Positions 367 to 44,421 of a DNA stretch of 64,000 nt are shown piece after piece. A program made the translations under genes and the position numbers. Under the pieces are notes generated by a model. The model searched no databases, had not been told where the DNA came from, and was given only the letters and a program-made list of their open reading frames with translations. The first letter of the stretch is position 1. Every line of letters begins with the position of its first letter. Origin of the DNA: Aeromicrobium wangtongii (GTDB lineage Bacteria; Actinomycetota; Actinomycetes; Propionibacteriales; Nocardioidaceae); NCBI RefSeq assembly GCF_024584515.1, contig NZ_CP102173.1, positions 2,232,001 to 2,296,000 on the forward strand, in the 5' to 3' direction.

Positions 367-1347
367 TCAGCCGATAAACGCGTCAGCGAACAGCTCAGCC
401 GACTTCAGCCGCTGTTCGGCCCGCGGGCTCTGGTGGGCGACGATGAGCTCGTCGATACCGGTCTGCTCGACGAACGCCGTGACCTCCTTGAGCACGGTGT
501 CGGGCGTGCCGGCCGAGCTGTAGGTCATCATGCCGCGCAGGTGCGCGCCCTGGGGCGAGGCGAGGATCTGGTCGGCCTGTTCGTCGGTGTACTTGGTGCC
601 GGGACGCACGAGCAGGGCCACGCGGGTGCGCATGACCTCGAGCTGCTGGCGCTCGGCGTCGGCCTGGTCGTCGGCGGCGATGACGTTGAACGCGGCCATC
701 AGGTGGGGCTTGTCGAGCTGCTCGGACGGCTTGAACTCGCGGCGGTACAGCGCGATCGCGTCGTGCAGGGCGGCCGGGGCGAAGTGCGACGCGAAGGCGT
801 ACGGCAGGCCGAGGGCAGCGGCCAGGCCCGCGCCGTACAGCGAGGAGCCGAGGATGTAGAGCGGGACGTTGGTGCCGGTGCCGGGGTAGGCGGCGACGTC
901 CGGGATGCGCGACTCGCCGCGCAGGTACGCCTGCAGCTCCAGGACGTCCTCCGGGAAGGTGTCCGACGACGTGGCGTTGCGGCGCAGCGCGTGCATCGTG
1001 TTCTGGTCGGTGCCGGGCGCACGGCCCAGGCCGAGATCGATGCGTCCGGGGTGCAGGGTCTCCAGGGTGCCGAACTGCTCGGCGATCTGCAGCGGCGAGT
1101 GGTTGGGCAGCATCACTCCCCCGGCGCCGAGCCGGATGCTGCTGGTGTGCGCGGCCACGTGGGCGATCAGCACCGACGTCGCCGACGACGCGATCGCGGC
1201 CATGTTGTGGTGCTCGGCGTACCAGACCCGCTGGTAACCGGTCTGCTCCGCGGTCTGCGCCAGGGCGACGGTTCCAGCCAGCGCTTCGGCGACCGACTGG
1301 TCGCGCGCGACGGTTGCAAGGTCGAGGATCGAAACCGGCACAGACAT
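367..1347 (-). CDS. LLM-class flavin-dependent oxidoreductase (luciferase-like monooxygenase)
   Basis: Protein of 326 residues of the bacterial luciferase-like family, which uses reduced flavin (FMNH2, or F420 in some members) to oxidise small organic substrates in the cytoplasm. The start [12 protein letters not shown], the early WYAEHHNM segment and [19 protein letters not shown], followed by [13 protein letters not shown], are typical of the MsnO8-type LLM subgroup. I chose the ATG at 1347 because the family begins there and GAAGGG lies just upstream; a longer frame reaches 1404 but adds unrelated residues. It stands alone. The substrate cannot be read from the sequence. Confidence 0.85.
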
Positions 1348-1640
1348 GAAACACCCTTCGTGGACACAGCGACGCCGGTCGGCGTCGTCATCTATCAGTA
1401 ACAACCGATCGGGGCGCGATTCCCATCCCGGGTCAGCGTCGGCAACCTCTCATCGCCCTGGCCCTGGTCATCGGCCCTCATGTCCGATTCCGCAGACGAG
1501 GAGCCCAAGGGCATGAAACGATGGGCGACGCTTTCGGGCACGCGTCTGACGCCGATCCGGCATGCATAGGCAATGAACGTGTAGGGCGCGCACGGTATCG
1601 AGCACCTCTACTGACGAGTCCCGGAAGGATTCCCACCGTC

Positions 1641-4600
1641 GTGCTCTCCCCCAAGACCCGAGTGCTGCTCTGCCTCGTCCTGCCCACCCTGCTGCTGGCG
1701 CCGGTGCTGACGATCACGCCGGCGTCCGCGGACGACCTGGACCACGTCAGCACAGCCACCGGGACGCCCGAGCTCGTCACCGTGAACGAGCCCTCACTGC
1801 CGCCAGGTGTCAGCCTGGACGACCCGACGGACACCACGTCCCTGCTGAAGAAAGCAGGCGTAGACGGCGAACCGGTCACCAAGGACGGGACCCCCAAGCG
1901 CTCCCTGGCCCGGGCAGCGGCCACCTACTTCCCCGCCGGCGCGTCGGTCATCCCGGGCTACGGTGGCCATGTGGCTCCGGCGTGCGCTGGGGACGGAACC
2001 GACGGCCGACGCGTGCGCGTCATGTACGTCCGCGAGACGAGCGACCCTTCGCGCCTGACGGCCCTGCGTGGTTCGTTCCTCAACGAGCTCGCGCAGGTCG
2101 ACGACCTGTTCGCGTACGCGTCGAGCGCGCCCGGCGAGAGCCGTCGAGTCCGCTGGTACAGCGACCCGAACTGCCAGCCAACCATTGACGAGGTCGTCGT
2201 CGCCGTTGGTGTGCTGTCCGTCGGCGGATCGGCAGGACACACGGCCCTGACCAACGCGCTGAACAAGGCCGGCTACACCAACAACATGCACAAGTACATC
2301 GTGTTCGCAGAGGGCAACCGCATCGGCGGCAGCACGTGTGGGCTCGGGAACTTCTACCAAGACGTGCGTCCCGGAGCAGAGAATTACAACAATGGCGGCG
2401 GTAACACCAGCCCCACGGTCGCTCGCATCGACACCGTCTGCTGGTTCAGCAACGCGTCGTCGGCCACCACCACGCACGAGCTCATGCACACGCTTGGTGG
2501 TGTGCTGCAGTCCGCCCCGGACGCCACCTTGTACGGGCACTGCCACGACGCGCGCGACCCGATGTGTTACGACGACGGGTCGGGGATGCCGATGCGTTCG
2601 GTGTGCACGCAGACCGGCGCCGCGCTGCAGCTCGACTGCAACAAGGACGACTACTTCAACATTGCGCCCGCTTCCGGCACGTACCTGGCGAACAACTGGA
2701 ACGTGGCTAACTCGCTGTTCCTGACCAAGGTCGCCTTCGGTACAGACCCGTGGTCTTCCGCGGCGCTGACAGTGGACCCTCCGGTGGTGACCACCGGCCA
2801 GGACGCAACACTCCTGGTTGCTGGGACGCCCGCTGGGACCACCGCAGCCTTCTCTGTCAGCAACGACAAGTGCACCGTGGTGCCGGCAGGTTCGTCCGCG
2901 GACGGTATCCGCGGCACCCTGAACTGCTCTGCCCGGGCGGTTCCCGGCAATCCGGACACCACGACCGTGGTGGTCACCGCCGCTCTGTCTCACCCGGACT
3001 ACCCCACCAGTTCCCGCTCGCTGAACGTCACTGTGAAGCGGGCTGCACCGCCGATGGTGGCTGTGGCGGGCGGCCCGGAGGTGCGGACGAACGTCCCCTA
3101 CACGATCCGTGCCACGTCGGCGGCGACCGGTCTCAGCTGGGGCTGGACGGCATCCGACTCCCGGTGCCAGCTGGACGGCGCAGCTACCCCCGTGCTGACG
3201 ATTACGTGCCCTGACGCGTCCGCAGGCCGTTTGCTCGAACTGTCGGTGACAGCGACCGCCCCGGACGGTCAGTCCTACACGGCGTACGCCGACGTTGACG
3301 TCATCGCCCAGTACTCCTCACCCGAGCTCGACCTTTTGGGCCCGAGGGACGTCAAGACGGGCAACGAGTACATCTACACGGCGGACCTCACCTCCGCCGA
3401 CCCTGCCGACCCGGTGACGTACTCCTGGAAAGACGAACACATCGAGGCCGGTCGCGAGTACGAGTCGACCATCGTCGGTCCCACCGACCAGCGCACAGTG
3501 AAGCTGAAGCCGATCCAGAATGGTGAGCGACGTCTGACCGTGACTGTGACCGTAGGGTCGCATACCTTGAGTTCGCAGCTGTTCTACCTGGCAACCACCG
3601 ACTACGTCGTGACCGTCACGTCCAGCCACAACACTGCGATGTCTGGGACTCCGGTGGTGTTCGACGCGACCGCAACGGACACGTTCCGCACCAACTTCTC
3701 CTGGTCTCTCAACCCAAAGGCAGAGAGCGGAGGGTGCAGGATCTCGTCGGAGATGACCCCCGAGGACCCACACCACAGCGCGGTGTCTGTCACGTGCCCG
3801 GCAGGCTTCTCAGGTCCCGTCACCGCCACTGTGACAGGCACAGGCAAGAGCGGGCAGGTGGAGGCTTCCGGGTCCAGCACTGTCCAGTTCGCGGCCGTCC
3901 CGTTCAGCGTCGCCTTCCTGCAGACGCCGACTGGCAAGGTTGGCAACGGCAAGGCGGGGACATTCACCGTCACGTCCACGGTGCCCGCACAGTTCCACTG
4001 GGTGCCCACCCGACCCGAGTGCACTGTTGGAAACCCCGGCTCGTTGTCTGAGACCCAGATGACTGCCACGGTCACCTGCCCGGTTACCGTCCACGGGAAT
4101 GTGGGCCTGACCGTCGTAGCAACCGAGATCGACCCCGTCGCGGGTGATGGCAAGGGCCGGACGCGTACCGCTACGGCGTCGATGGAAGTGGACAAGGCGC
4201 CACCACCACCCGCGGCTGTCACTGGCGTGGAGGTTGTGGCCTACGACCCGACGACGATCTCGCTGAGGTGGAACCCGTCTGCGGGCGCCGAATCCTACGT
4301 TGTCCGGTACAGCACCCGCAGTGACGGCAGCTATTACATGACCACGACCGTCGCCGGTGGCGCCAGCACCACGCTCACTGGGCTGTCGCCTGGCATTACC
4401 CACTACGTCAGCATCGTCGCCATTCGCGGGGGTGTCGCCTCGGACCCCACAGGTTGGTGGCCGGTCACGACTCCCCTTGTCATGACTCCGCTCCCGCCGC
4501 GTCGGACACCTTCCACCCCTGCTCCTTTCGTGGCCAAGCCGTCAGGCGTGAAGATGAAGGCGCACACGAAGACGACCATCACCCCGAAGTGGTCGCGGCC

Positions 4601-4808
4601 GGCCGGTGCGAAGAAGTTCATCGTCTACTACGGCACGAAGGCGAACGGAAAGGGCGCGAAGTCCAAGACCGTTGGCAACAAGGCGGCGGTCAAGCTGACG
4701 CGTCTGAAGAAGAACACCCGGTACTACGTGCGGGTGATCGCCGTGTCAGCTGCTGGGAAGAAGTCGGCGTACTCCAAACAGGTCAGCATGAAGACCAAGG
4801 CGAAGTGA
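1641..4808 (+). CDS. large secreted metzincin-like protein with C-terminal fibronectin type III domains
   Basis: Protein of 1,055 residues from a GTG at 1641, preceded by GGAAGGA. The first 30 residues form a signal peptide (LLCLVLPTLLLAPVL, cut near ASA). Residues about 110-340 hold HELMHTLGG with H279, E280 and H283, followed by DPMCY near 308 that looks like a metzincin Met-turn; the third zinc ligand expected in HExxHxxGxxH is not at its usual place. The middle contains repeated Ig-like beta domains with paired cysteines. Two fibronectin type III domains follow (about 856-945 and 965-1055), the last one very lysine-rich. It is probably an exported protease or adhesin bound to the surface or matrix. 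Enzymatic activity is inferred from the HExxH motif only. An in-frame upstream extension to 1521 lacks signal-peptide logic. Confidence 0.7.
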   Translation: MLSPKTRVLLCLVLPTLLLAPVLTITPASADDLDHVSTATGTPELVTVNEPSLPPGVSLDDPTDTTSLLKKAGVDGEPVTKDGTPKRSLARAAATYFPAGASVIPGYGGHVAPACAGDGTDGRRVRVMYVRETSDPSRLTALRGSFLNELAQVDDLFAYASSAPGESRRVRWYSDPNCQPTIDEVVVAVGVLSVGGSAGHTALTNALNKAGYTNNMHKYIVFAEGNRIGGSTCGLGNFYQDVRPGAENYNNGGGNTSPTVARIDTVCWFSNASSATTTHELMHTLGGVLQSAPDATLYGHCHDARDPMCYDDGSGMPMRSVCTQTGAALQLDCNKDDYFNIAPASGTYLANNWNVANSLFLTKVAFGTDPWSSAALTVDPPVVTTGQDATLLVAGTPAGTTAAFSVSNDKCTVVPAGSSADGIRGTLNCSARAVPGNPDTTTVVVTAALSHPDYPTSSRSLNVTVKRAAPPMVAVAGGPEVRTNVPYTIRATSAATGLSWGWTASDSRCQLDGAATPVLTITCPDASAGRLLELSVTATAPDGQSYTAYADVDVIAQYSSPELDLLGPRDVKTGNEYIYTADLTSADPADPVTYSWKDEHIEAGREYESTIVGPTDQRTVKLKPIQNGERRLTVTVTVGSHTLSSQLFYLATTDYVVTVTSSHNTAMSGTPVVFDATATDTFRTNFSWSLNPKAESGGCRISSEMTPEDPHHSAVSVTCPAGFSGPVTATVTGTGKSGQVEASGSSTVQFAAVPFSVAFLQTPTGKVGNGKAGTFTVTSTVPAQFHWVPTRPECTVGNPGSLSETQMTATVTCPVTVHGNVGLTVVATEIDPVAGDGKGRTRTATASMEVDKAPPPPAAVTGVEVVAYDPTTISLRWNPSAGAESYVVRYSTRSDGSYYMTTTVAGGASTTLTGLSPGITHYVSIVAIRGGVASDPTGWWPVTTPLVMTPLPPRRTPSTPAPFVAKPSGVKMKAHTKTTITPKWSRPAGAKKFIVYYGTKANGKGAKSKTVGNKAAVKLTRLKKNTRYYVRVIAVSAAGKKSAYSKQVSMKTKAK

Positions 4809-4824
4809 ATCTGCTGAGGTAGGC

Positions 4825-4846
4825 ACTTCGACAAGCTCAACGGGCG
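4825..4846 (+). repeat. REP-like short interspersed repeat (TTCGACAAGCTCAACGG)
   Basis: Intergenic copy of the element that also occurs inside nrdJ (8855-8937) and, inverted and variant, inside dapF (32371-32389). The core is TTCGACAAGCTCAACGGGCG. It lies between the secreted metzincin-like gene and the flavodoxin-like gene, just upstream of the latter's -10 element. Confidence 0.7.
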
Positions 4847-4862
4847 TGAGCCGTAGATCATA

Positions 4863-4868
4863 TAGATT
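4863..4868 (+). promoter_or_regulatory. -10 element of a probable leaderless promoter
   Basis: TAGATT lies six bases before the ATG at 4875 and no ribosome binding site is visible, so the transcript probably starts at the start codon. Confidence 0.5.
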
Positions 4869-4874
4869 TGGCGC

Positions 4875-5675
4875 ATGGGTTTGCGGGTAGGTGTTGTGCT
4901 GGCCAGTGATCACGGCTATTCGGGGACCACCGGTCAGCTCGTGACGGAGCTGCTCGATCGGCTGCAGGCCGGCACCACGGTGGAGGTCGACACGGTGCTG
5001 ACGACCGATCTGGAGCTCGGGTCCAGCTGCCCCGCGTGCCTGCGCTGCATGACCGACGGCGAGCAGGCGTGCCCCAACTTCGACCGCGCCGCCGCGGCCC
5101 GCCGCGTGATGGACGACGCCGACCTGGTCATCTTCGCGACGCCGGTGCACTCCTTCCAGGTCTCGGCCAGCATGAAGCGGTTCATCGACCACTTCGCCTA
5201 CCTCATCCACCGCCCCGCCTACGTCGGGCGGCCGGCCGTCCTGATCTCGTCAGCCGCCGGCGGCGGACACGACGCGGCCCTGGAGTACCTGCGCAGCGCG
5301 GTGCGGCGCTGGGGATTCCACACCGTCGGCCAGCTGGGCGCCAACGGCCCCGGCCTGGCTCGCCCCGGCTACCGGGCCAAGGTCGACGCCGCGCTGGACG
5401 AGCTCGCGCCCCTCGCCCTGGCCGCACCGAACCAGCCGGAACCGAAGCCGACGACAGCAGACCTGATCGGCTTCCGGGTCGCCAAGATCCTGGTCGACTC
5501 CGGACGCGAGGACGGCCCCGTCGACGCGAAGTACTGGGACGAGCGCGGCTGGTTCGACGCCGAATGGTGGACCGACCAGAAACCGCCGTTCGTCGCCAAC
5601 CGCATCGCCGGCCTGGTCGAGAAGAAGATCCGCAAGGGCATCAATGAGGGCTCGGCCGACCCCTACCGCGGCTGA
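4875..5675 (+). CDS. flavodoxin-fold NAD(P)H-dependent oxidoreductase family protein
   Basis: Protein of 266 residues with the flavodoxin-like fold of the FMN reductase/NADPH:quinone reductase group. The N-terminal strand LRVGVVLASD leads into SGTTGQL (residues 16-22), the FMN phosphate loop; ADLVIFATPVHSFQVSASMKRF around 100 is the second flavin-binding segment, and ISSAAGGGHDAAL the third. A cysteine cluster at C52, C55, C58 and C66, with the usual ordering of ferredoxin-like or metal-binding members, marks the subgroup of multimeric flavodoxin WrbA-like proteins. The C-terminal 80 residues are a helical extension. The ATG at 4875 has a -10 hexamer six bases ahead and no Shine-Dalgarno. Electron donor and acceptor are unknown. 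Confidence 0.75.
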   Translation: MGLRVGVVLASDHGYSGTTGQLVTELLDRLQAGTTVEVDTVLTTDLELGSSCPACLRCMTDGEQACPNFDRAAAARRVMDDADLVIFATPVHSFQVSASMKRFIDHFAYLIHRPAYVGRPAVLISSAAGGGHDAALEYLRSAVRRWGFHTVGQLGANGPGLARPGYRAKVDAALDELAPLALAAPNQPEPKPTTADLIGFRVAKILVDSGREDGPVDAKYWDERGWFDAEWWTDQKPPFVANRIAGLVEKKIRKGINEGSADPYRG

Positions 5676-5693
5676 CCTCACTCCCCCGCGCCG

Positions 5694-6734
5694 TCACATG
5701 CTGGCGGCGTCCTGCACCTCCCCCACGAGTTCCTCGATGATGTCCTCGAGAAACAGCACGCCCGTCGTGACACCGTCCTGGTCCAGCGACCTGGCCACGT
5801 GACCCCCGGTGCGCCGCATCAGGTGCAGCGCATCCTCGAGGTCGGCCTCGCGGAACGTCGAGGTCAGGCGGCGGATGCGCTTGGCCGGCACCGGGGCCGT
5901 GAAGGCGTCCCCCTCGGTCAGGTCCATGACGTCCTTGAGGTGCAGGTAGCCGACCGGCGCCTGGTCGGCACCGGCGACGACGTAGCGGGAGAACCCGTGC
6001 TCCGCGACCGCGTGCTGGACGTCAGCGGGGGTCGCCCCGAACGGCAGGACGACCATGTCGGCCATCGGCACCTCGACGTCACAGACCTTCTTGGCGCTGA
6101 ACTCGAAGGCGGCCGTCAGGGTGCCGGACGTGTCGTCCAGGACGCCCTCCCGGGTGGACTGCTCGACGATGTTGGCGACCTCGTCGAGGGTGAACGTGCT
6201 GCTGGCCTCGTCCTTGGGCTCGACCTTGAACAGGCGCAGCACGGCGTTCGCCACACCGTTCAGCGACCAGATGACCGGCTTGAAGAACCTCGAGACCATG
6301 ACCAGCGGCGGCGCCAGGATCAGCGCGGCGCGGTCCGGGACCGAGAACGACAGGTTCTTGGGCACCATCTCGCCGAACACGACATGCAGGAACGTCACCA
6401 GCGCGAGCGCCACGATGAACGCGATGACGCCGATCGCCTCGGCGGACAGCGACGTGACGCCCAGCGGGATCTCCAGCAGGTGGTGGATGGCCGGCTCGGA
6501 GACGTTCAGGATCAGCAGCGAGCACACCGTGATGCCCAGCTGGCTGGTGGCCAGCATCAAGGTGGCGTGCTCCATCGCCCACAGCGTGGTCTTGGCCGCC
6601 TTGCTGCCGGCCTCCGCCTTGGGCTCGATCTGCGAGCGACGGGCGGAGATGACGGCGAACTCGGCGCCGACGAAGAAGGCATTGCCCGCCAGCAGGACGA
6701 CGAGCCAGATGACTCCGGGAAGGTACTCACTCAT
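5694..6734 (-). CDS. CNNM/HlyC-CorC family membrane protein, short form
   Basis: Protein of 346 residues. The N-terminal half is a DUF21 (CNNM) transmembrane domain with about four helices (LPGVIWLVVLLAGNAFFVGAEF and further segments up to about residue 150). A CBS pair follows from about 190 (VCDVEVPMADMVVLPF onward). It ends at LEDIIEELVGEVQDAASM, so it lacks the C-terminal CorC_HlyC domain found in its neighbour. Such proteins are linked to divalent cation (Mg2+ or Co2+) efflux or homeostasis. Its ATG overlaps the stop of the upstream paralogue by four bases, which indicates translational coupling and perhaps a heteromeric complex. Confidence 0.85.
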   Translation of the reverse strand: MSEYLPGVIWLVVLLAGNAFFVGAEFAVISARRSQIEPKAEAGSKAAKTTLWAMEHATLMLATSQLGITVCSLLILNVSEPAIHHLLEIPLGVTSLSAEAIGVIAFIVALALVTFLHVVFGEMVPKNLSFSVPDRAALILAPPLVMVSRFFKPVIWSLNGVANAVLRLFKVEPKDEASSTFTLDEVANIVEQSTREGVLDDTSGTLTAAFEFSAKKVCDVEVPMADMVVLPFGATPADVQHAVAEHGFSRYVVAGADQAPVGYLHLKDVMDLTEGDAFTAPVPAKRIRRLTSTFREADLEDALHLMRRTGGHVARSLDQDGVTTGVLFLEDIIEELVGEVQDAASM

Positions 6735-36961: not shown

Positions 36962-36978
36962 GCCCGAGCGTGGCTCAG
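36958..36978. terminator. small stem-loop between convergent genes
   Basis: CTGAGCC and GGCTCAG (7 bp) contain the stop codons of both the SMR gene and the TetR gene. The stem is short, so termination strength is uncertain. Confidence 0.4.
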
Positions 36979-37610
36979 ACGGCGGGCTCGGTCACGGTCA
37001 GCAGCAACAGCGGCAGCGTGCCCTTCAGCAGGCCCAGGTCGATCGGGCGGTCCTCGATCAAGGCCTCGCGCAGCGCGCTCTCGTAGGTGCCCATCAGGAT
37101 CGTCGCGGCGTGCGAGACGCTGACCGTCAGGCGCAGCCGGAGCGTCTGCAGGACGGTGGACATGAAGTCCTCGAAGTCGGCCCGCACCTGGCGCCAGGCC
37201 TCGACGAAGGCGCGCCCGACGGCGTCGTCGCGCACCCCGCGCAGCTGGAACTCGGCGTTGACCAGGAACCACTCGCGGTCCTGCGGCTGCATCAGCAGGA
37301 ACCGGTCGATCATGACGCCGAAGGCCTCGACGACGTCCAGCCCCTCGTACGACGCGGGGTCGGCCGCCGCCCGCAGCGCGGTGAACATCCGCTCGCGCTC
37401 CTGGTCGAGCAGCGCCAGCACCAGGTCGTCCTTGCTGCCGAAGTTGGAGTAGAACGCGCCGCGGGTGAACCCGGCCTGGTCGCAGATGTGCTCGACGGAC
37501 GCGCCCTGGATGCCCTCACGGGCCAGCACCTCGCGGGCGGCGTCGAGCAGGCGCTCGCGGGTCGCGGCCCGGCGGCGCACGGCGGGTCGCGCGGGTGAGC
37601 TGTCCGACAT
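36975..37610 (-). CDS. TetR/AcrR-family transcriptional regulator
   Basis: Protein of 211 residues. The N-terminal helix-turn-helix (about 15-62) reads RERLLDAAREVLAREGIQGASVEHICDQAGFTRGAFYSNFGSKDDLV-like, a textbook TetR DNA-binding domain; the rest is a helical ligand-binding domain. ATG at 37610 follows AGGAAGGA. It is divergent from the RND-ABC fusion gene, and a palindrome in the gap overlaps that gene's -35, so it most likely represses the exporter until a ligand binds. Ligand unknown. Confidence 0.93.
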   Translation of the reverse strand: MSDSSPARPAVRRRAATRERLLDAAREVLAREGIQGASVEHICDQAGFTRGAFYSNFGSKDDLVLALLDQERERMFTALRAAADPASYEGLDVVEAFGVMIDRFLLMQPQDREWFLVNAEFQLRGVRDDAVGRAFVEAWRQVRADFEDFMSTVLQTLRLRLTVSVSHAATILMGTYESALREALIEDRPIDLGLLKGTLPLLLLTVTEPAV

Positions 37611-37652: not shown

Positions 37653-37682
37653 ATTGACGTACTCAATACACAAACGTATCGT
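37653..37682 (+). promoter_or_regulatory. promoter and TetR operator of the RND-ABC fusion transporter
   Basis: Inverted repeat ATTGA-N5-TCAAT (37653-37667) overlaps a -35 TTGACG (37654-37659). After 17 bp comes -10 TATCGT (37677-37682), seven bases before the GTG at 37690. A bound repressor would block RNA polymerase directly, and the transcript would be leaderless. Confidence 0.65.
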
Positions 37683-37689
37683 CCTTGCG

Positions 37690-40581
37690 GTGTCGAACTC
37701 CCTGTACGCCCTCGGCCGCTGGGCCTTCCGCCATCCACGCCGCGTGCTCGGCGGGTGGGTGCTGGTGCTGCTGGTCGCCGGCGTCGCAGCCGTGGGCCTG
37801 GGCGACGGCACCAAGAACGCCTTCGACATCCCCGGCACCGAGTCGCAGGAGGCGATCGACTCGCTGGGGCGGACGTTTCCCGAGCTGAGCGGCACCTCGG
37901 CCTATCTCATCGTCGTGGCACCCGACGGCGGGACGGTCGACGATCCCGCCACCAAGCGCCTGGTCACCGACGCCGTCGCCGAGATCTTGCAGGTCGAGGG
38001 AGTCACCGAGGCGGTCTCGCCCTATGACAAGGGCAATGCGATCGGCCTGTCCAAGGACCGTCATGCCGCCCAGGTGCAGATCCAGTTCGACCGCGAGCTG
38101 ACCGACGTCACGCCGGCCGAGCGCGACCAGCTGGTCGACACCGGGGACGCGCTGAAGGCCGCCGGCCACACGGTCGCCTTCGGCGGCGACGTGTTCACCA
38201 ACACCGGCCCCCAGCTGTCGATCATCGAGGTCATCGGCATCATCGTGGCGTTCATCGTCCTGCTGGTGATGTTCCGGTCGCTGCGCGCCGCGGTGATGCC
38301 GATCGTCACCGCGGTGCTGGGCGTGCTGGTCACGATGGGCATCACGATCGCCGCCACCGGATTCGCCTCGATCTCCTCGACCGCTCCCCTGCTGGCGCTC
38401 ATGATCGGTCTGGCGGTCGGCATCGACTACGCCCTGTTCATCGTGTCGCGCCACCGCGAGCTGCTCGGCGACGGGCTGGAGCCCGAGGAGGCCGCGGCGC
38501 GGTCGGTGGCCACGGCCGGCTCGGCGGTGGTGTTCGCCGGCATCACGGTCGTCATCGCCCTGCTGGGCCTGGCGATCGCCCGCATCCCGTTCCTGACCAT
38601 CATGGGCGCGGTCGCCGCGCTGTCGGTCGTCATCGCGGTGGCCGTGGCGCTGACCGCGCTGCCTGCACTGCTGGGACGCGCGGGGGCGCGACTGACTCCG
38701 AGTGCCGGCCACGCGCCGGGAGGGTTCTCGCGCCGGTGGGTGACGGTGATGACGCGGTTCCCGCTGATCGCGATCGTCGTGGTCGTGGTGGGCCTGGCGA
38801 TCACCGCCATCCCGGCCAAGGACCTGCAGCTCGCGCTGCCCGACAACGGCACCGCACCGGCCGGCAGCACCCAGCGAGTCGCCTTCGACCTGATCGACGA
38901 GCACTTCGGTCCCGGCCACAACGGTCCCCTGCTGGTCAGCATCGACATCATCTCCACGACCGACCCGATCGGCGTCGTGGACGACATCGCCGCCGACCTG
39001 CGCGCGATGCCCGGCGTGGCCGACATCGGTCTGGCCACGCCCAACCGCACCGCCGACACCGGCATCGTCCAGGTCATCCCCACGACCGGACCGACCGACG
39101 AGCGGACCACCGAGCTGGTGCGTGCGATCCGCGACCGCGCCCCTGAGTGGCGCACCGAGCACGGTGTCCCCGTGGCCGTCACGGGTCTGACCGCCGGCGG
39201 CATCGACGTGTCCGACCGACTGCAGGGCGCACTGCTCCCGTTCGGCGTCGTCGTGGTGGGCCTGTCGGTGCTGCTGCTGATGATCGTGTTCCGCTCGATC
39301 GTCGTGCCGCTCAAGGCCACGCTGGGCTTCCTGCTGTCGACCGGCGCCTCGTTCGGCGCGGTCGTCGCGGTCTTCCAGTGGGGCTGGCTGATGGAGCTCG
39401 TCCACCTGGAGCACACCGGCCCGCTGATCAGCTTCCTGCCGATCATCTTGATGGCGGTGCTGTTCGGCCTCTCGATGGACTACGAGGTGTTCTTGATGGC
39501 GCGGATGAAGGAGGAGTACGTCCGCTCGAACGATCCGCGCCGGGCGATCGTCGACGGCTTCGTGGGCAGCTCCCGCGTCGTCACGGCTGCCGCGGTCATC
39601 ATGCTGGCGGTGTTCGCGGCCTTCGTCCCCGAGGGCGACCCGAACATCAAGCCGATCGCGTTCGCGCTGGCGATCGGCGTCTTCGTCGACGCCTTCCTCA
39701 TCCGGATGCTGTTCGCGCCGGCCGTGCTCGAGCTGTTCGGCCGCCGCGCGTGGACCCTGCCGGCAGCGCTCGAACGACGCCTGCCCCACGTCGATGTGGA
39801 GGGCGAGGGCCTGCACCGCCGGGTCGACCTGGCCGCGTGGCCGCGTCCGGGCTCGACCGCCGCCATCACCGCGGCGGCGCTGACAACCGAGGGACCCGAG
39901 GGACCCGTGTTCAACGACGTCTCGGTCGAGGTCGAGCCCGGCGACTGGCTCGTGGTGCACGGCCCGACCGGGACCGGCAAGACCGCCCTGCTGCTGACGT
40001 TCGCCGGTCGGATGGCCTTCGACAGCGGACGCCTGCGCATCGCCGGCCACCTGCTGCCGCAGGAGTCCTCGCGGGTCCGCCACCGCGTCGCGCTGGCCGA
40101 GCTGGCGGGCGTCAACGACCTCGAGGACAACCTCACCGTCGACCAGCACATCGCCGAGCGCCTCTCCATCCGGTCCTTCGGGCTGTCGGTCAGCCGTCGC
40201 CGCCTCGGGCCGGTCCTGGGCCAGCTCAACGACGCCCTCGAGCAGGCCCACCGGCAGGCAGGCATCCCGTTCGAGCCGGTTGCCGGGTCGGCGCTCGTCG
40301 CGACCCTGACCCGGCTGGAGCGCAAGCTGCTGGGCATCGTGCTGGCGCTCACCGACGATCCCCGCATCGTCATCGTCGACGATGCGGACGAGCTGCGCGC
40401 CGCCGAGGACATCGACCTGTTGTGGTCGGCCCTGGCGACGTTGCTCGAGCACCACGACGTGACGCTCGTGGCGAGCGTCCTGTCGGCCTCGGCGGCACCC
40501 ATGACCTCCGGCTCCACCTCCAGCCGGCTCCACCTCCTGGAGCTGGACACCTCCCGCACCCCTGCTGAGTTGATGCTCTGA
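37690..40581 (+). CDS. RND/MMPL-family exporter fused to a degenerate ABC ATPase-like domain
   Basis: Protein of about 963 residues from the GTG at 37690 (leaderless context; a TTG at 37654 is in frame but lies inside the operator). Residues about 1-700 are an MMPL transporter: 11-12 transmembrane segments in two halves, with GLAVGIDYALFIVSRHRE and GLSMDYEVFLMARMKEEY as the paired proton-relay motifs. Residues about 715-940 form a nucleotide-binding-like domain with Walker A GPTGTGKT (758-765) and a Walker B RIVIVDDADE (892-901). The ABC signature LSGGQ, the Q-loop glutamine and the H-switch are not recognisable. The next gene starts on its last base. It probably exports lipids or hydrophobic compounds; the role of the ATPase-like part is unclear. 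Confidence 0.88.
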   Translation: MSNSLYALGRWAFRHPRRVLGGWVLVLLVAGVAAVGLGDGTKNAFDIPGTESQEAIDSLGRTFPELSGTSAYLIVVAPDGGTVDDPATKRLVTDAVAEILQVEGVTEAVSPYDKGNAIGLSKDRHAAQVQIQFDRELTDVTPAERDQLVDTGDALKAAGHTVAFGGDVFTNTGPQLSIIEVIGIIVAFIVLLVMFRSLRAAVMPIVTAVLGVLVTMGITIAATGFASISSTAPLLALMIGLAVGIDYALFIVSRHRELLGDGLEPEEAAARSVATAGSAVVFAGITVVIALLGLAIARIPFLTIMGAVAALSVVIAVAVALTALPALLGRAGARLTPSAGHAPGGFSRRWVTVMTRFPLIAIVVVVVGLAITAIPAKDLQLALPDNGTAPAGSTQRVAFDLIDEHFGPGHNGPLLVSIDIISTTDPIGVVDDIAADLRAMPGVADIGLATPNRTADTGIVQVIPTTGPTDERTTELVRAIRDRAPEWRTEHGVPVAVTGLTAGGIDVSDRLQGALLPFGVVVVGLSVLLLMIVFRSIVVPLKATLGFLLSTGASFGAVVAVFQWGWLMELVHLEHTGPLISFLPIILMAVLFGLSMDYEVFLMARMKEEYVRSNDPRRAIVDGFVGSSRVVTAAAVIMLAVFAAFVPEGDPNIKPIAFALAIGVFVDAFLIRMLFAPAVLELFGRRAWTLPAALERRLPHVDVEGEGLHRRVDLAAWPRPGSTAAITAAALTTEGPEGPVFNDVSVEVEPGDWLVVHGPTGTGKTALLLTFAGRMAFDSGRLRIAGHLLPQESSRVRHRVALAELAGVNDLEDNLTVDQHIAERLSIRSFGLSVSRRRLGPVLGQLNDALEQAHRQAGIPFEPVAGSALVATLTRLERKLLGIVLALTDDPRIVIVDDADELRAAEDIDLLWSALATLLEHHDVTLVASVLSASAAPMTSGSTSSRLHLLELDTSRTPAELML

Positions 40582-42701
40582 TGATCCCCTCGCCGTCCCT
40601 TCCCTGGTTCGAGCTGGCCAGGTTCCGGCGCAGCCGGCTGACCCGAGCCGCCATCGTCGCGGTCGCGCTGGTGCCGTTGTTCTACGGCGCGATGTACGTG
40701 TGGGCCAATCTCGACCCGACCGGCAACATCGACTCCGTCAAGGCTGCCGTGGTCAACGAGGACAAGCTGATCGAGATCACCGGCCGCGACGGCAAGAAGC
40801 AGCCCGTCGCGATCGGCCGCCAGCTGGCCGGCAACCTGGTCAGCGACGACGGCGACAACAACTACGACTGGGTGCTCACCGATGCCAAGGACGCCCAGCG
40901 CGGGCTGGCCACCGGCGACTACAAGGCCGTCCTGACGATCCCCGAGAACCTGTCGAGTGCCGCCACCTCCACCAGCGGGGACCCGCAGGACGCGATCCAG
41001 GGCAATCTGGACCTGCAGACCAATGACGCGGTCAACTACATCAACGGGACCATCGCCCGGACGATCCTGCAGGCGGCCAAGTCGGCGCTCAACGCGCAGG
41101 TCACCGAGACCTACCTGGACAACGTCTATCTGAGCTTCTCCGATCTCAAGCTCGCGCTCGACGACGCCGCCGACGGCGCGGCCGAGCTCGCCGACGGCTC
41201 CGACCAGCTGTCGGACGGCGCGGGCGAGCTCGGTGACGGGGCCGATCAGCTCGCCGGGGGTGCCGGCGAGCTGGCCGACGGCGCCGGCACCCTGGCCGAC
41301 GGCAACCGCAAGCTCGCCCGCGGGGCGAAGCAGCTCGACTCCGGCGCCAAGCAGCTGTCCTCGGGCCTGGAGCAGCTGGACGAGCGCACCTCGACGCTGC
41401 CGCGCGACTCCCGGCGGCTGGCCGACGGGGCCGCCCAGGTCGCCGATGGCACGGCCCAGGTCGACGAGCTCGTTCAGGGCGTGACCAAGGGCCTCCTGGG
41501 ATCCACCGACCGCGCCGAGACCGACATCGACCGGCTCGCGAGCTCGCTGCGCACCCTGGCCAACCAGTGCCGTGACGCTTCCCCGGCCGGCCTGGACTGC
41601 TCGGCGATCGAGGGTACCGCGAGCCGCGCCGGCGACCTCAAGACCTTCGTCCGCGACGTGCGCGGTCGGGCGTCCGGCGCCGGCCAGCAGACCCGCCTGC
41701 TCGCCGACGGTGCCCGCCAGGTCGCCGACGGCACCTCCGAGCTGGCCCGCAGCGTCCCGGCCCTGGTCGACGCGATCGGGCAGGCGTCCGACGGCGCGAA
41801 CCGGCTGACCGACGGAACCGGCCAGCTCCGCAAGGGAGCGGACGCCGCGGCGTCCGGCGCCGACCGCCTGGCCGACGGCGGTGACGAGCTCGCCGTTGGC
41901 GCCGACCAGCTCGCCGATGGTGCGGGTCAGCTCGTCGACGGCGCCGACCAGCTGTCGGCGGGCGCGACGAAGCTGTCCACCGGCCTGGACGAGGGCAGCG
42001 GCCAGGTGCCGGACTACACCTCGTCCGAGCGCGAGAAGCTCGCGAAGACCGCCGCAACACCCATCGAGGACGCGGCTGATCGCCTGCACCCGGTGAAGAA
42101 CTACGGCGCCGCGCTCGCGCCGTACTTCATCTCCCTGGCCCTGTGGGTCGGTGCCATGGCGATCTTCCTGCTGCTGCGACCGCTGTCGGCGCGTGCCATC
42201 GCATCGACGGCCGGCAGCATCCGCACCGCGCTGGCCGGCTACCTGCCGGGCCTGGCGATCTCGCTCGTCCAGGTCGCGCTGCTGCTGGCCGTGCTGCAGG
42301 GCATCATCGGCGTCGAGCCGGCCAACCAAGCACTGCTGATCGGCATCGCCCTGGCCACGGCTGCCGTGTTCGTCGCGATCAACCAGATGTTCGTCGCACT
42401 GCTCGGCCCGGCCGGACGCTTCGCGGCGCTGGTGTTCGTCAGCCTGCAGCTGACCTCATCGGGCGGCACCTACCCGATCGAGACGTCACCGCCGTTCTTC
42501 AACGTGCTGCACGACCTGCTGCCGATGACCTACACGGTCCACGGGCTGCGGGCGGCGCTGGCCGGCGGCACCGACGGGGTGGTGCGCGACGTCCTGGTGC
42601 TGGGGCTGTTCACGGCGCTGGCGCTGGGCGTCACGGTGCTGGCGGCACGGCGCAAGCAGATCGTCACGATCACCCGGCTGCACCCGACGCTGCAGGTCTA
42701 G
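40581..42701 (+). CDS. YhgE/Pip-family (ABC-2-like) membrane protein
   Basis: Protein of 706 residues. One N-terminal transmembrane segment (AAIVAVALVPLFYGAMYVWANLD) is followed by a large extracytoplasmic region (about 40-500) full of short repeats of the LADGADQLADGAGQL type, expected to form a long helical coiled structure. Five C-terminal transmembrane segments follow (about 510-700), as in ABC-2 permeases. Relatives include the phage infection protein Pip and the type VII secretion protein EsaA. Such permeases lack an ATPase; here the only ATPase-like domain is the one fused to the MMPL protein, whose stop codon overlaps this start by one base. Confidence 0.88.
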   Translation: MIPSPSLPWFELARFRRSRLTRAAIVAVALVPLFYGAMYVWANLDPTGNIDSVKAAVVNEDKLIEITGRDGKKQPVAIGRQLAGNLVSDDGDNNYDWVLTDAKDAQRGLATGDYKAVLTIPENLSSAATSTSGDPQDAIQGNLDLQTNDAVNYINGTIARTILQAAKSALNAQVTETYLDNVYLSFSDLKLALDDAADGAAELADGSDQLSDGAGELGDGADQLAGGAGELADGAGTLADGNRKLARGAKQLDSGAKQLSSGLEQLDERTSTLPRDSRRLADGAAQVADGTAQVDELVQGVTKGLLGSTDRAETDIDRLASSLRTLANQCRDASPAGLDCSAIEGTASRAGDLKTFVRDVRGRASGAGQQTRLLADGARQVADGTSELARSVPALVDAIGQASDGANRLTDGTGQLRKGADAAASGADRLADGGDELAVGADQLADGAGQLVDGADQLSAGATKLSTGLDEGSGQVPDYTSSEREKLAKTAATPIEDAADRLHPVKNYGAALAPYFISLALWVGAMAIFLLLRPLSARAIASTAGSIRTALAGYLPGLAISLVQVALLLAVLQGIIGVEPANQALLIGIALATAAVFVAINQMFVALLGPAGRFAALVFVSLQLTSSGGTYPIETSPPFFNVLHDLLPMTYTVHGLRAALAGGTDGVVRDVLVLGLFTALALGVTVLAARRKQIVTITRLHPTLQV

Positions 42702-43261
42702 CGGTGGGCGTCGGCCGCGTGCTTGATGCGGGCGACATACACCGGCCAGTCGGTGCCGCTGTCGTGGGTGTCGGACCCGGTGCGTCCGTCGGCCAGCTCG
42801 CGGATGATCTCGGCGTGCCCGGCGTGCTGGGCGGTCTCGGCGACCATCCGCACGAGCAGGTAGCCCAACGTCGTGCCGGCCGTCGCCGGTGGCCAGTGCG
42901 GCACCCGGCCGGGCGCGTCGATGGACAGCGCGTCAAGCGTCGTGTCGCCGTGCGCGCAGGCCCGGTGGTAGAGGGCCAGGATCTCCTGGCTGGACTCGTC
43001 GGCCGTGGCCCACATGTCGGCACCGTCCCACACCGAGCCGTCCGCGACCCACGGCAGCACATCGGGCGCCGGTCGTCCGAACGACTCCCCCAGATAGACG
43101 TGCTCGACACCAACCAGATGCTTGACCAGGCCGAGCAGATTGGTGCCGGTCGGTGTCATGGGGCGGCGCAGGTCGTACTCGCTCGCGCCGTCGACCCCGG
43201 CCAGCAGGGCGCCGCGGACCTCGCGCAGCTTGGCGTGCAGGACGTCCTTGAGGTCGCTCAT
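42698..43261 (-). CDS. DinB-family protein (DUF664-like)
   Basis: Protein of 187 residues with the four-helix DinB/YfiT-like fold. The sequences TGTNLLGLVKHLVGVEHVYLGESFGRP and MVAETAQHAGHAEIIRELADG are typical; the histidines in LVKHL, AQHAGH provide the usual metal triad. These proteins are often thiol transferases using mycothiol or bacillithiol, but individual functions are mostly unknown. Its start overlaps the upstream lipoprotein stop by four bases, and its stop overlaps that of the convergent YhgE gene. Confidence 0.85.
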   Translation of the reverse strand: MSDLKDVLHAKLREVRGALLAGVDGASEYDLRRPMTPTGTNLLGLVKHLVGVEHVYLGESFGRPAPDVLPWVADGSVWDGADMWATADESSQEILALYHRACAHGDTTLDALSIDAPGRVPHWPPATAGTTLGYLLVRMVAETAQHAGHAEIIRELADGRTGSDTHDSGTDWPVYVARIKHAADAHR

Positions 43262-44421
43262 GGCTCCATCGTGCCGCCTGCCGGGGACAGCGCCGGGTCG
43301 TCGTCCAGCAGTTCTCGATCGATCATGAAGCCGATGTTTCGGCTGTCGAGGTGCACGAAGACCAGGTCCCACTCACCCACCAGCTTGGCAGCCCCCTCGT
43401 ACTCCGGCACCGTGACATGGCTCTTGCGGACCGCGACGAAGGTGTCCTCGTCGCGCCAGGTGAACATCCAGATCTGGCCGCTGCCATCAGCAGGGCCGGG
43501 GATCCACGCGAAGTAGTGCCCCTGCGGGTCGACGACGCAGTGCCCAGCGAACCGCTCGGTGTCGCACGGATCGTCGGCGAACCAGTCCGGTGGCCCCGGT
43601 GCGACGAGCACGTCCACCGTGGGCGACGGGTCGTCGCCGAGCCGACTCGTCGTGAACCGACCGCCGACCGCCCCGGCGCCCAGCTCCCTCACCAACGGGG
43701 ACGGCCGGCGATCGCGCGCCGTGCCGCCGTCCGCGGTACGTAGGTATCCGTTGATCAAACCGTTGCCGGTCGCTGTCGTCTCGCTGATCTGAGAGGGGTC
43801 GGGCTCGCCGCCGAGCCAGTCGTCGACCCGCTCCCCCGCATCGATCGTCGCCTGCGACGTCGTGGGCCGCAGCCGCTCGTCCTGGACGAGGTCCTCCATG
43901 GCCGCGACCGGGATCCGCAGCCGTTGCCGGCGCGGATCGCCGGTGATGGCCTCGTCGGGGAGCCACGCGACCGAGACCTCACGATCGGCGGCATGCAGCG
44001 TCACGGAGACGAACCCGGGGTCCTCCTCCGGCTCCTCCTCCTGCCACTTCAGCACCATCGTGCCGTCGTCGACCTCGCGCTTCACGCATCCGTCGAGAAG
44101 CTCGTCGTCGCACACCGGCCGGTCCACGTCGGGGGTGACACTTACGCCGAGCGAGGAGCCATCTGTCTCACTCCCGTACCGGAACGAGATGCCGACGTCC
44201 CTCGTCTCCTTCGGATCGTCGAAGATCGCCCTGCGCGACGTCGTGTCGCCGGGCACGTGGTCGAGGGCGACCGCGGCTATCGCGCGCGGCGTGATGGGCA
44301 GGTCACCACCCCCGCGCTCCGCTGCGAGCCCGGAACCGCAGGCTGCCGCCGGCAGCAGGCTCGCCACGACCACGATCATCCTGCGCCGCCGGCCGGACCG
44401 ACAGCCCCGAGTCCCCCGCAC
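43258..44421 (-). CDS. secreted lipoprotein of unknown function
   Basis: Protein of about 387 residues from a GTG at 44421 with GGGGGA upstream; a basic start (VRGTRGCRSGRRRR) leads to a lipoprotein signal (MIVVVASLLPAAAC). The mature chain is acidic and beta-rich, with scattered cysteines (VCDDELLDGC, DPCDTERFAGHC) that may form disulphides. No known domain recognised. It is co-translated with the DinB-like gene. An ATG at 44379 is an alternative start that still keeps the lipobox. Confidence 0.68.
   Translation of the reverse strand: MRGTRGCRSGRRRRMIVVVASLLPAAACGSGLAAERGGGDLPITPRAIAAVALDHVPGDTTSRRAIFDDPKETRDVGISFRYGSETDGSSLGVSVTPDVDRPVCDDELLDGCVKREVDDGTMVLKWQEEEPEEDPGFVSVTLHAADREVSVAWLPDEAITGDPRRQRLRIPVAAMEDLVQDERLRPTTSQATIDAGERVDDWLGGEPDPSQISETTATGNGLINGYLRTADGGTARDRRPSPLVRELGAGAVGGRFTTSRLGDDPSPTVDVLVAPGPPDWFADDPCDTERFAGHCVVDPQGHYFAWIPGPADGSGQIWMFTWRDEDTFVAVRKSHVTVPEYEGAAKLVGEWDLVFVHLDSRNIGFMIDRELLDDDPALSPAGGTMEP

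Follow-up and report, generated by a model that had tools for sequence, protein, structure and literature searches.

A conserved fusion of an MMPL transporter to a putative ABC pseudo-ATPase precedes YhgE/Pip genes in Actinomycetes

Introduction

Transporters of the HAE2-MMPL branch of the RND superfamily, to which MmpL3 belongs, are built from two MMPL halves with Asp-Tyr pairs, and HAE2 members are described as exporters of complex lipids (PMC3924187). In the MmpS5-MmpL5-AcpM system, the cytosolic protein AcpM is reported to bind at the C-terminus of MmpL5, where it bridges protomers, and a coiled-coil tube is reported to extend across the wall (PMC12501195). ABC-2 exporters of the NodI/J, CcmA/B, and ABCG types have a separate nucleotide-binding domain (NBD), encoded directly before an ABC-2-like permease. 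In the heterodimeric ABC exporter MsRv1273c/72c, one of the two nucleotide sites is described as active, and in the degenerate site Asp replaces the catalytic Glu and Gln replaces the switch His, with ATP possibly serving as glue (PMC12038006). The YhgE/Pip family, which is related to EsaA of type VIIb secretion, includes Enterococcus proteins reported to act as phage entry factors; in Enterococcus PIP, TM1 and TM2 are described as flanking a single large extracellular domain (PMC4999554).

Here, we analyze a locus in a window of 64,000 nucleotides from Aeromicrobium wangtongii (contig NZ_CP102173.1, positions 2,232,001 to 2,296,000), in which elements of these systems are joined. The window protein shares the two MMPL halves and the Asp-Tyr pairs with MmpL3 and its HAE2 relatives, but adds a C-terminal ABC NBD. 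As in the ABC-2 exporters, this NBD lies directly before an ABC-2-like permease, yet it has no catalytic residues and sits on the MMPL protein. The permease resembles the YhgE/Pip family and EsaA in its profile matches and heptads, and differs in that it follows an NBD-family protein fused to MMPL. The locus also recalls MmpS5-MmpL5-AcpM in combining an MMPL protein with a cytosolic C-terminal partner and a long helical part; however, the partner here is a fused putative pseudo-NBD, and the long helices belong to the neighboring YhgE. Neither an MMPL-ABC fusion nor a YhgE-linked ABC pseudo-ATPase is described in the titles and opening parts of abstracts listed by searches of the open-licence PMC literature. 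All parts of the locus come from known families; it is their combination, together with a family-wide loss of catalysis, that changes the expected energy source.

Results

The fusion gene (37690..40581, plus strand) encodes 963 amino acids from a GTG start, in a frame that is open from 37654/37690 and closes with a stop codon at 40579-40581. Its first ~703 residues (37690..39798) constitute an MMPL/RND transporter of the 12-TM type, matching PF03176 at 1.1e-90 in two stretches and above the gathering score. The remainder (39799..40578) is the fused NBD, which contains a match to ABC_tran (PF00005; 3.5e-12, 47.5 bits against a cut-off of 25) at residues 741-899 (positions 39910-40386). The predicted model of this domain (mean pLDDT 79.4, pTM 0.79) matches PDB structures of ABC NBDs (best 1.3e-13), which identifies it as an ABC-fold P-loop domain; its best full-domain match in NCBIfam is NodI. 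An intact P-loop, GPTGTGKT, occupies residues 758-765 (39961..39984), exactly where the initial annotation had placed a Walker A motif. That annotation, made from the sequence alone, had described a two-halved MMPL transporter continuing in one frame into an ABC ATPase-like domain and overlapping by one base a YhgE/Pip gene that has no ATPase of its own. Each of these points holds: the profiles for MMPL, ABC_tran, and YhgE all score above their cut-offs, and the ATG of the next gene begins at position 40581, the last base of the fusion gene. The possibility that the fused tail is not a P-loop domain was rejected on the profile, model, and fold matches given above. At 978 amino acids, the frame is longer than those of seven further MMPL genes with two matches in this genome, which span 723-854 amino acids.

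Upstream of the fusion gene, a divergent gene (36975..37610, minus strand; start taken at MSDSSPARP) encodes a TetR-family regulator (Pfam TetR_N, 2e-14), and a TetR match likewise precedes the fused gene at most same-genus loci. The intergenic region holds a promoter/operator-like element (37653..37682, plus strand), which consists of the palindrome ATTGACGTACTCAAT (37653-37667), a -35-like TTGACG (37654-37659), a 17-nt spacer, and a -10-like TATCGT (37677-37682) ending 7 nt before the GTG. By eye, ATACATTG is present at this element in 18 of 21 same-genus sequences, and its genus-wide position just ahead of the GTG supports the start at 37690. Together, the arrangement suggests a leaderless transcript of the fusion operon that would be controlled by the divergent TetR protein.

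The second gene of the operon (40581..42701, plus strand) encodes a YhgE/Pip protein of 706 amino acids. It scores above the curated cut-offs of TIGR03061 (3e-43, 147.3 bits against 96.15) and TIGR03062 (3.8e-62, 209.6 bits against 102.2), matches the XXXLXXG heptad model TIGR03057 in 11 stretches (4e-33), and shows a weak match to the EsaA model TIGR03929. Its ABC-2-like character is indicated by ABC2_membrane_3 (PF12698, 2.7e-18). The protein is laid out as an N-terminal TM helix with the YhgE-N domain, an XXXLXXG helical part (~153-474), and a C-terminal ABC-2-like membrane domain. In the predicted model, which is weak (pLDDT 70.1, pTM 0.38), ~320 residues of long helices separate TM1 from the C-terminal membrane domain, and ABCH/ABCG membrane domains are aligned over ~200 C-terminal columns of this low-confidence model (E ~1e-3; several rows have an rmsd of 3.4-4). 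Coiled coils dominate the fold search with the whole model, and the search of solved structures with YhgE returned coiled coils only. A convergent gene (42698-43372, minus strand), which matches mycothiol-S-transferase (MST) at 1.6e-38, overlaps the YhgE stop with its frame.

The fusion recurs well beyond the window. Among 36 same-genus genomes, 20 carry it and seven have a standalone NBD gene before YhgE; the remaining nine have no YhgE above the cut-off, several of them being incomplete assemblies. Where YhgE is found above the cut-off (41 genomes), each genome has exactly one. In a sample of 394 genomes of the class, at least 27 have a fused-type match, distributed over six family codes (f1, f2, f20, f39, f45, and f47). 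These 27 fusions were verified by domain profiles and comprise the window itself, 13 loci sampled earlier, and 13 newly fetched ones. YhgE directly follows every one of them, including all 13 of the newly fetched loci, which had been picked by their NBD and not by YhgE. Given this recurrence, an assembly frameshift joining two genes, or a chance open frame, can be rejected. One further genome (G414, locus L251) was not counted as fused, given that its fused gene is broken: at about 900-5750 of this locus, MMPL, NBD, and the beginning of YhgE are in different frames of one fused-type locus. In four genomes from a different family of the order (G037, G040, G045, and G053), fused and standalone types are found at separate loci. 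No fused record was found on plasmids, where none of 220 matching records covers 80% of the query, and no fused type occurs outside the class among the matches listed for a phylum sample of 198 genomes.

Within the genus, the NBDs are 60-80% identical to that of the window, except for one at 39%. In a tree of the NBDs, inferred by a quick method from a set that preceded the 13 later fused sequences, with flagged long branches and an SH-aLRT of 89 for the standalone clade, fused and standalone types are parted by one change, or by two if the canonical outgroup is counted. One old fusion is thus the simplest history, and several independent fusions are not needed to account for the tree.

Whether the domain occurs fused or as a separate gene beside YhgE, which the initial annotation had raised as a question, was addressed with 74 YhgE genes of the class on 70 fetched stretches. 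These stretches were hand-picked from 85 YhgE-bearing genomes, with the largest genus thinned and loci already sampled left out. A separate NBD gene of the same family directly precedes YhgE in 61 cases and the fusion in six; one YhgE gene follows an MMPL gene without NBD, and six have neither. Since seven of the 74 YhgE genes have no family NBD upstream, such an adaptor is not obligatory. The NBD-family profile gives 62-242 bits for members at loci in which a control profile of canonical NBDs gives about 15-58 bits or no match. The family NBD was also found at both of the Actinomycete plasmid loci that were opened (Arthrobacter and Tsukamurella), and, with YhgE beside it, at a locus (L252) of a different class within the phylum. 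It is absent from all five YhgE loci examined in Bacillota and Deinococcota (Roseburia, Deinococcus, Bacillus, Leuconostoc, and Paenibacillus; upstream sequence is limited to 1.1 kb in Leuconostoc, and the Paenibacillus record is unannotated), which indicates that the YhgE family as such does not need an NBD. Two class loci (L157 and L158) have two tandem YhgE genes and no family NBD upstream. Two others (L125 and L133) contain two tandem NBD-YhgE pairs each, the first NBD of L125 being split over two frames.

The MMPL half appears fit to serve as a motor. Asp-Tyr pairs have a role in proton transfer in MmpL3. In the window protein, both pairs are present, one in each half (GIDY and SMDY), and they are retained in 45 of 46 fused MMPLs as well as in the one unfused MMPL beside an NBD-less YhgE; in the exception (L079), one pair reads Asp-Val. 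The nearest solved structure to the window MMPL is MmpL3 (1.6e-49). The MMPL half is therefore likely to be proton-driven.

In a joint alignment of 33 fused and 74 standalone family NBDs with 20 NBDs of the same genome as controls (two pieces of the split L125 NBD were left out, which reduced the family rows from 109 to 107), the window NBD reads LTRLE at the place of the LSGGQ signature (40306..40320) and IVIVDD at the Walker B strand (40366..40383), with Asp at the place of the catalytic Glu (40381-40383) and Leu at that of the switch (H-loop) His. The catalytic Glu is found in 19 of 20 controls, 1 of 33 fused, and none of 74 standalone NBDs; the switch His in 17, one, and none; the Q-loop Gln in 17, none, and one; and a signature-like LSGGQ in 13, none, and none. 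Loss of the signature alone is weak evidence, given that seven of the 20 controls also miss its strict form. The P-loop Lys follows another pattern (20/20 controls, 24/33 fused, 4/74 standalone). Lys, Glu, and His (the last within two columns) occur together in 17 of 20 controls and in none of the 107 family NBDs. When the 13 later fused sequences are added (n = 46), 26 have the Lys, one the Glu, one the His, and none the Gln; 20 of the 46 fused relatives have thus lost the Lys, keeping fusion and operon. Six of the 33 fused NBDs retain only 6-19 residues of the stretch before the signature, which leaves no room for a normal site in these clades, and the signature columns are absent from most of the 13 later sequences. 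The standalone NBDs of the same genus (L085-L091, L173, and L174) read GxxGxGHT instead of GxxGxGKT, a fixed Lys-to-His change, and His occupies the Lys column in 17 of the 74 standalone NBDs overall.

An alignment artefact as the source of the motif loss is countered by the 20 same-genome NBDs placed in the same alignment. Alignment-free patterns were tried as well (hhhhDE in 1/46 fused, 7/75 standalone, and 19/20 control NBDs; SGG in 3/46, 14/75, and 11/20), and the alignment counts are preferred because such patterns give chance matches in this family. The initial annotation had taken the fused domain as a possible energising subunit of YhgE, an idea that runs against the family-wide absence of the catalytic Glu, switch His, Q-loop Gln, and LSGGQ.

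The clade of the window differs from the other fused clades in what it has kept. Among 21 same-genus fused NBDs, the P-loop Lys is present in 21 and the Walker B Asp in 19, and this speaks against a pseudo-ATPase in suggesting that the nucleotide still matters in the window clade. At the catalytic position, 18 have Asp and three have Gly, and 12 have Gln at the position of the His. This is the Asp and Gln combination described for the degenerate site of MsRv1273c/72c, and the window-clade NBD may thus bind ATP without turning it over, although slow hydrolysis could persist with an Asp at the catalytic position. Given the retained P-loop, a regulatory role of the domain is possible, too.

Discussion

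Standalone NBDs of this family go with YhgE and not with MMPL, which makes YhgE the probable partner of the NBD, and the fusion therefore ties MMPL to YhgE. Our preferred reading, to which we assign a probability of about 0.58, is that a proton-driven MMPL transporter is tethered to YhgE by an ABC pseudo-ATPase acting as adaptor, the complex itself being inferred from the genes. The operon would encode a system for envelope export, repressed by the divergent TetR protein, in which the MMPL half, with its proton-relay residues kept, would supply the drive. The C-terminal pseudo-ATPase would contribute an ABC fold and, in the window clade, a P-loop possibly holding ATP, with the hydrolysis residues gone. 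This pseudo-NBD might dock MMPL on the cytoplasmic face of an ABC-2-like YhgE dimer, as NBDs do on ABC permeases, and bound ATP could be structural glue at the docking site. The long XXXLXXG helical domain of YhgE, located outside the membrane, could carry or guide cargo through the wall; judging by the protein families, the cargo may be amphiphilic or lipid-like. The initial annotation had suggested lipid or glycolipid export as a possibility.

While the P-loop and the Walker B Asp, which the genus keeps in the absence of catalytic residues, would suit an NBD that senses ATP levels or nucleotides and gates its own MMPL, with YhgE merely co-expressed, we consider this reading doubtful. The C-terminus of an MMPL protein is reported as a place for cytosolic partners (PMC12501195), which agrees with such a sensor; however, the NBD family is paired with YhgE rather than MMPL in 61 of 74 class loci, which makes YhgE its older partner, and loss of the P-loop Lys in 20 of 46 fused relatives has left fusion and operon in place.

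A bolder form of the tethering model, unlikely in our judgment, would have the pseudo-NBD sit rigidly on MMPL, dock at the ATPase place of YhgE, and relay the motion of MMPL. An ABC-2 permease would then have exchanged ATP for the proton gradient as its source of power, and, more broadly, nearly all YhgE/Pip proteins of Actinomycetes would be accompanied by a retired ABC ATPase.

It is quite improbable that the fused domain is a working ATPase that energises YhgE and thereby unites an ATP-driven with a proton-driven transporter. The ABC fold with an intact P-loop in the window clade, the family NBD beside most Actinomycete YhgE genes, and the ABC-2-like C-terminal domain of YhgE all fit such an arrangement, but the residues for hydrolysis are missing, the P-loop Lys is found in just four of the 74 standalone relatives, which are sited before YhgE as well, and YhgE occurs without NBD in all five non-actinomycete loci. 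Of the proposal in the initial annotation, a physical link between MMPL and YhgE survives as a genomic inference, and a secondary plus a primary transporter in one complex is unlikely, given the loss of these residues from the NBD and its whole family.

It is very improbable that the degenerate NBD pairs with a canonical NBD encoded elsewhere to give a single functional site, as heterodimeric ABC exporters do. The Asp for Glu (18/21) and Gln at the His place (12/21) are the pair reported for the degenerate site of MsRv1273c/72c (PMC12038006), but no second NBD lies within the operon, and clades without signature and P-loop could not build such a site. MsRv1273c/72c differs from the present system in that one of its two sites is described as active, whereas the full residue set occurs in none of the 107 family NBDs. 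We give next to no credence to a functionless accident kept by chance, given that, although the nucleotide pocket has decayed strongly in several clades, one old fusion has been kept across six family codes and all but one of the genus NBDs have stayed within 60-80% identity of the window domain.

YhgE/Pip proteins are widespread in Gram-positive bacteria, without a settled transport function or energy source. A conserved and putatively hydrolysis-deficient ABC family encoded beside YhgE, and fused in one old lineage to MMPL, now offers a candidate partner and a testable energy model for these proteins. If the preferred reading of an MMPL transporter tethered to YhgE is true, an ABC motor domain would have been turned into a structural part, and RND and ABC-type proteins would meet in one system.
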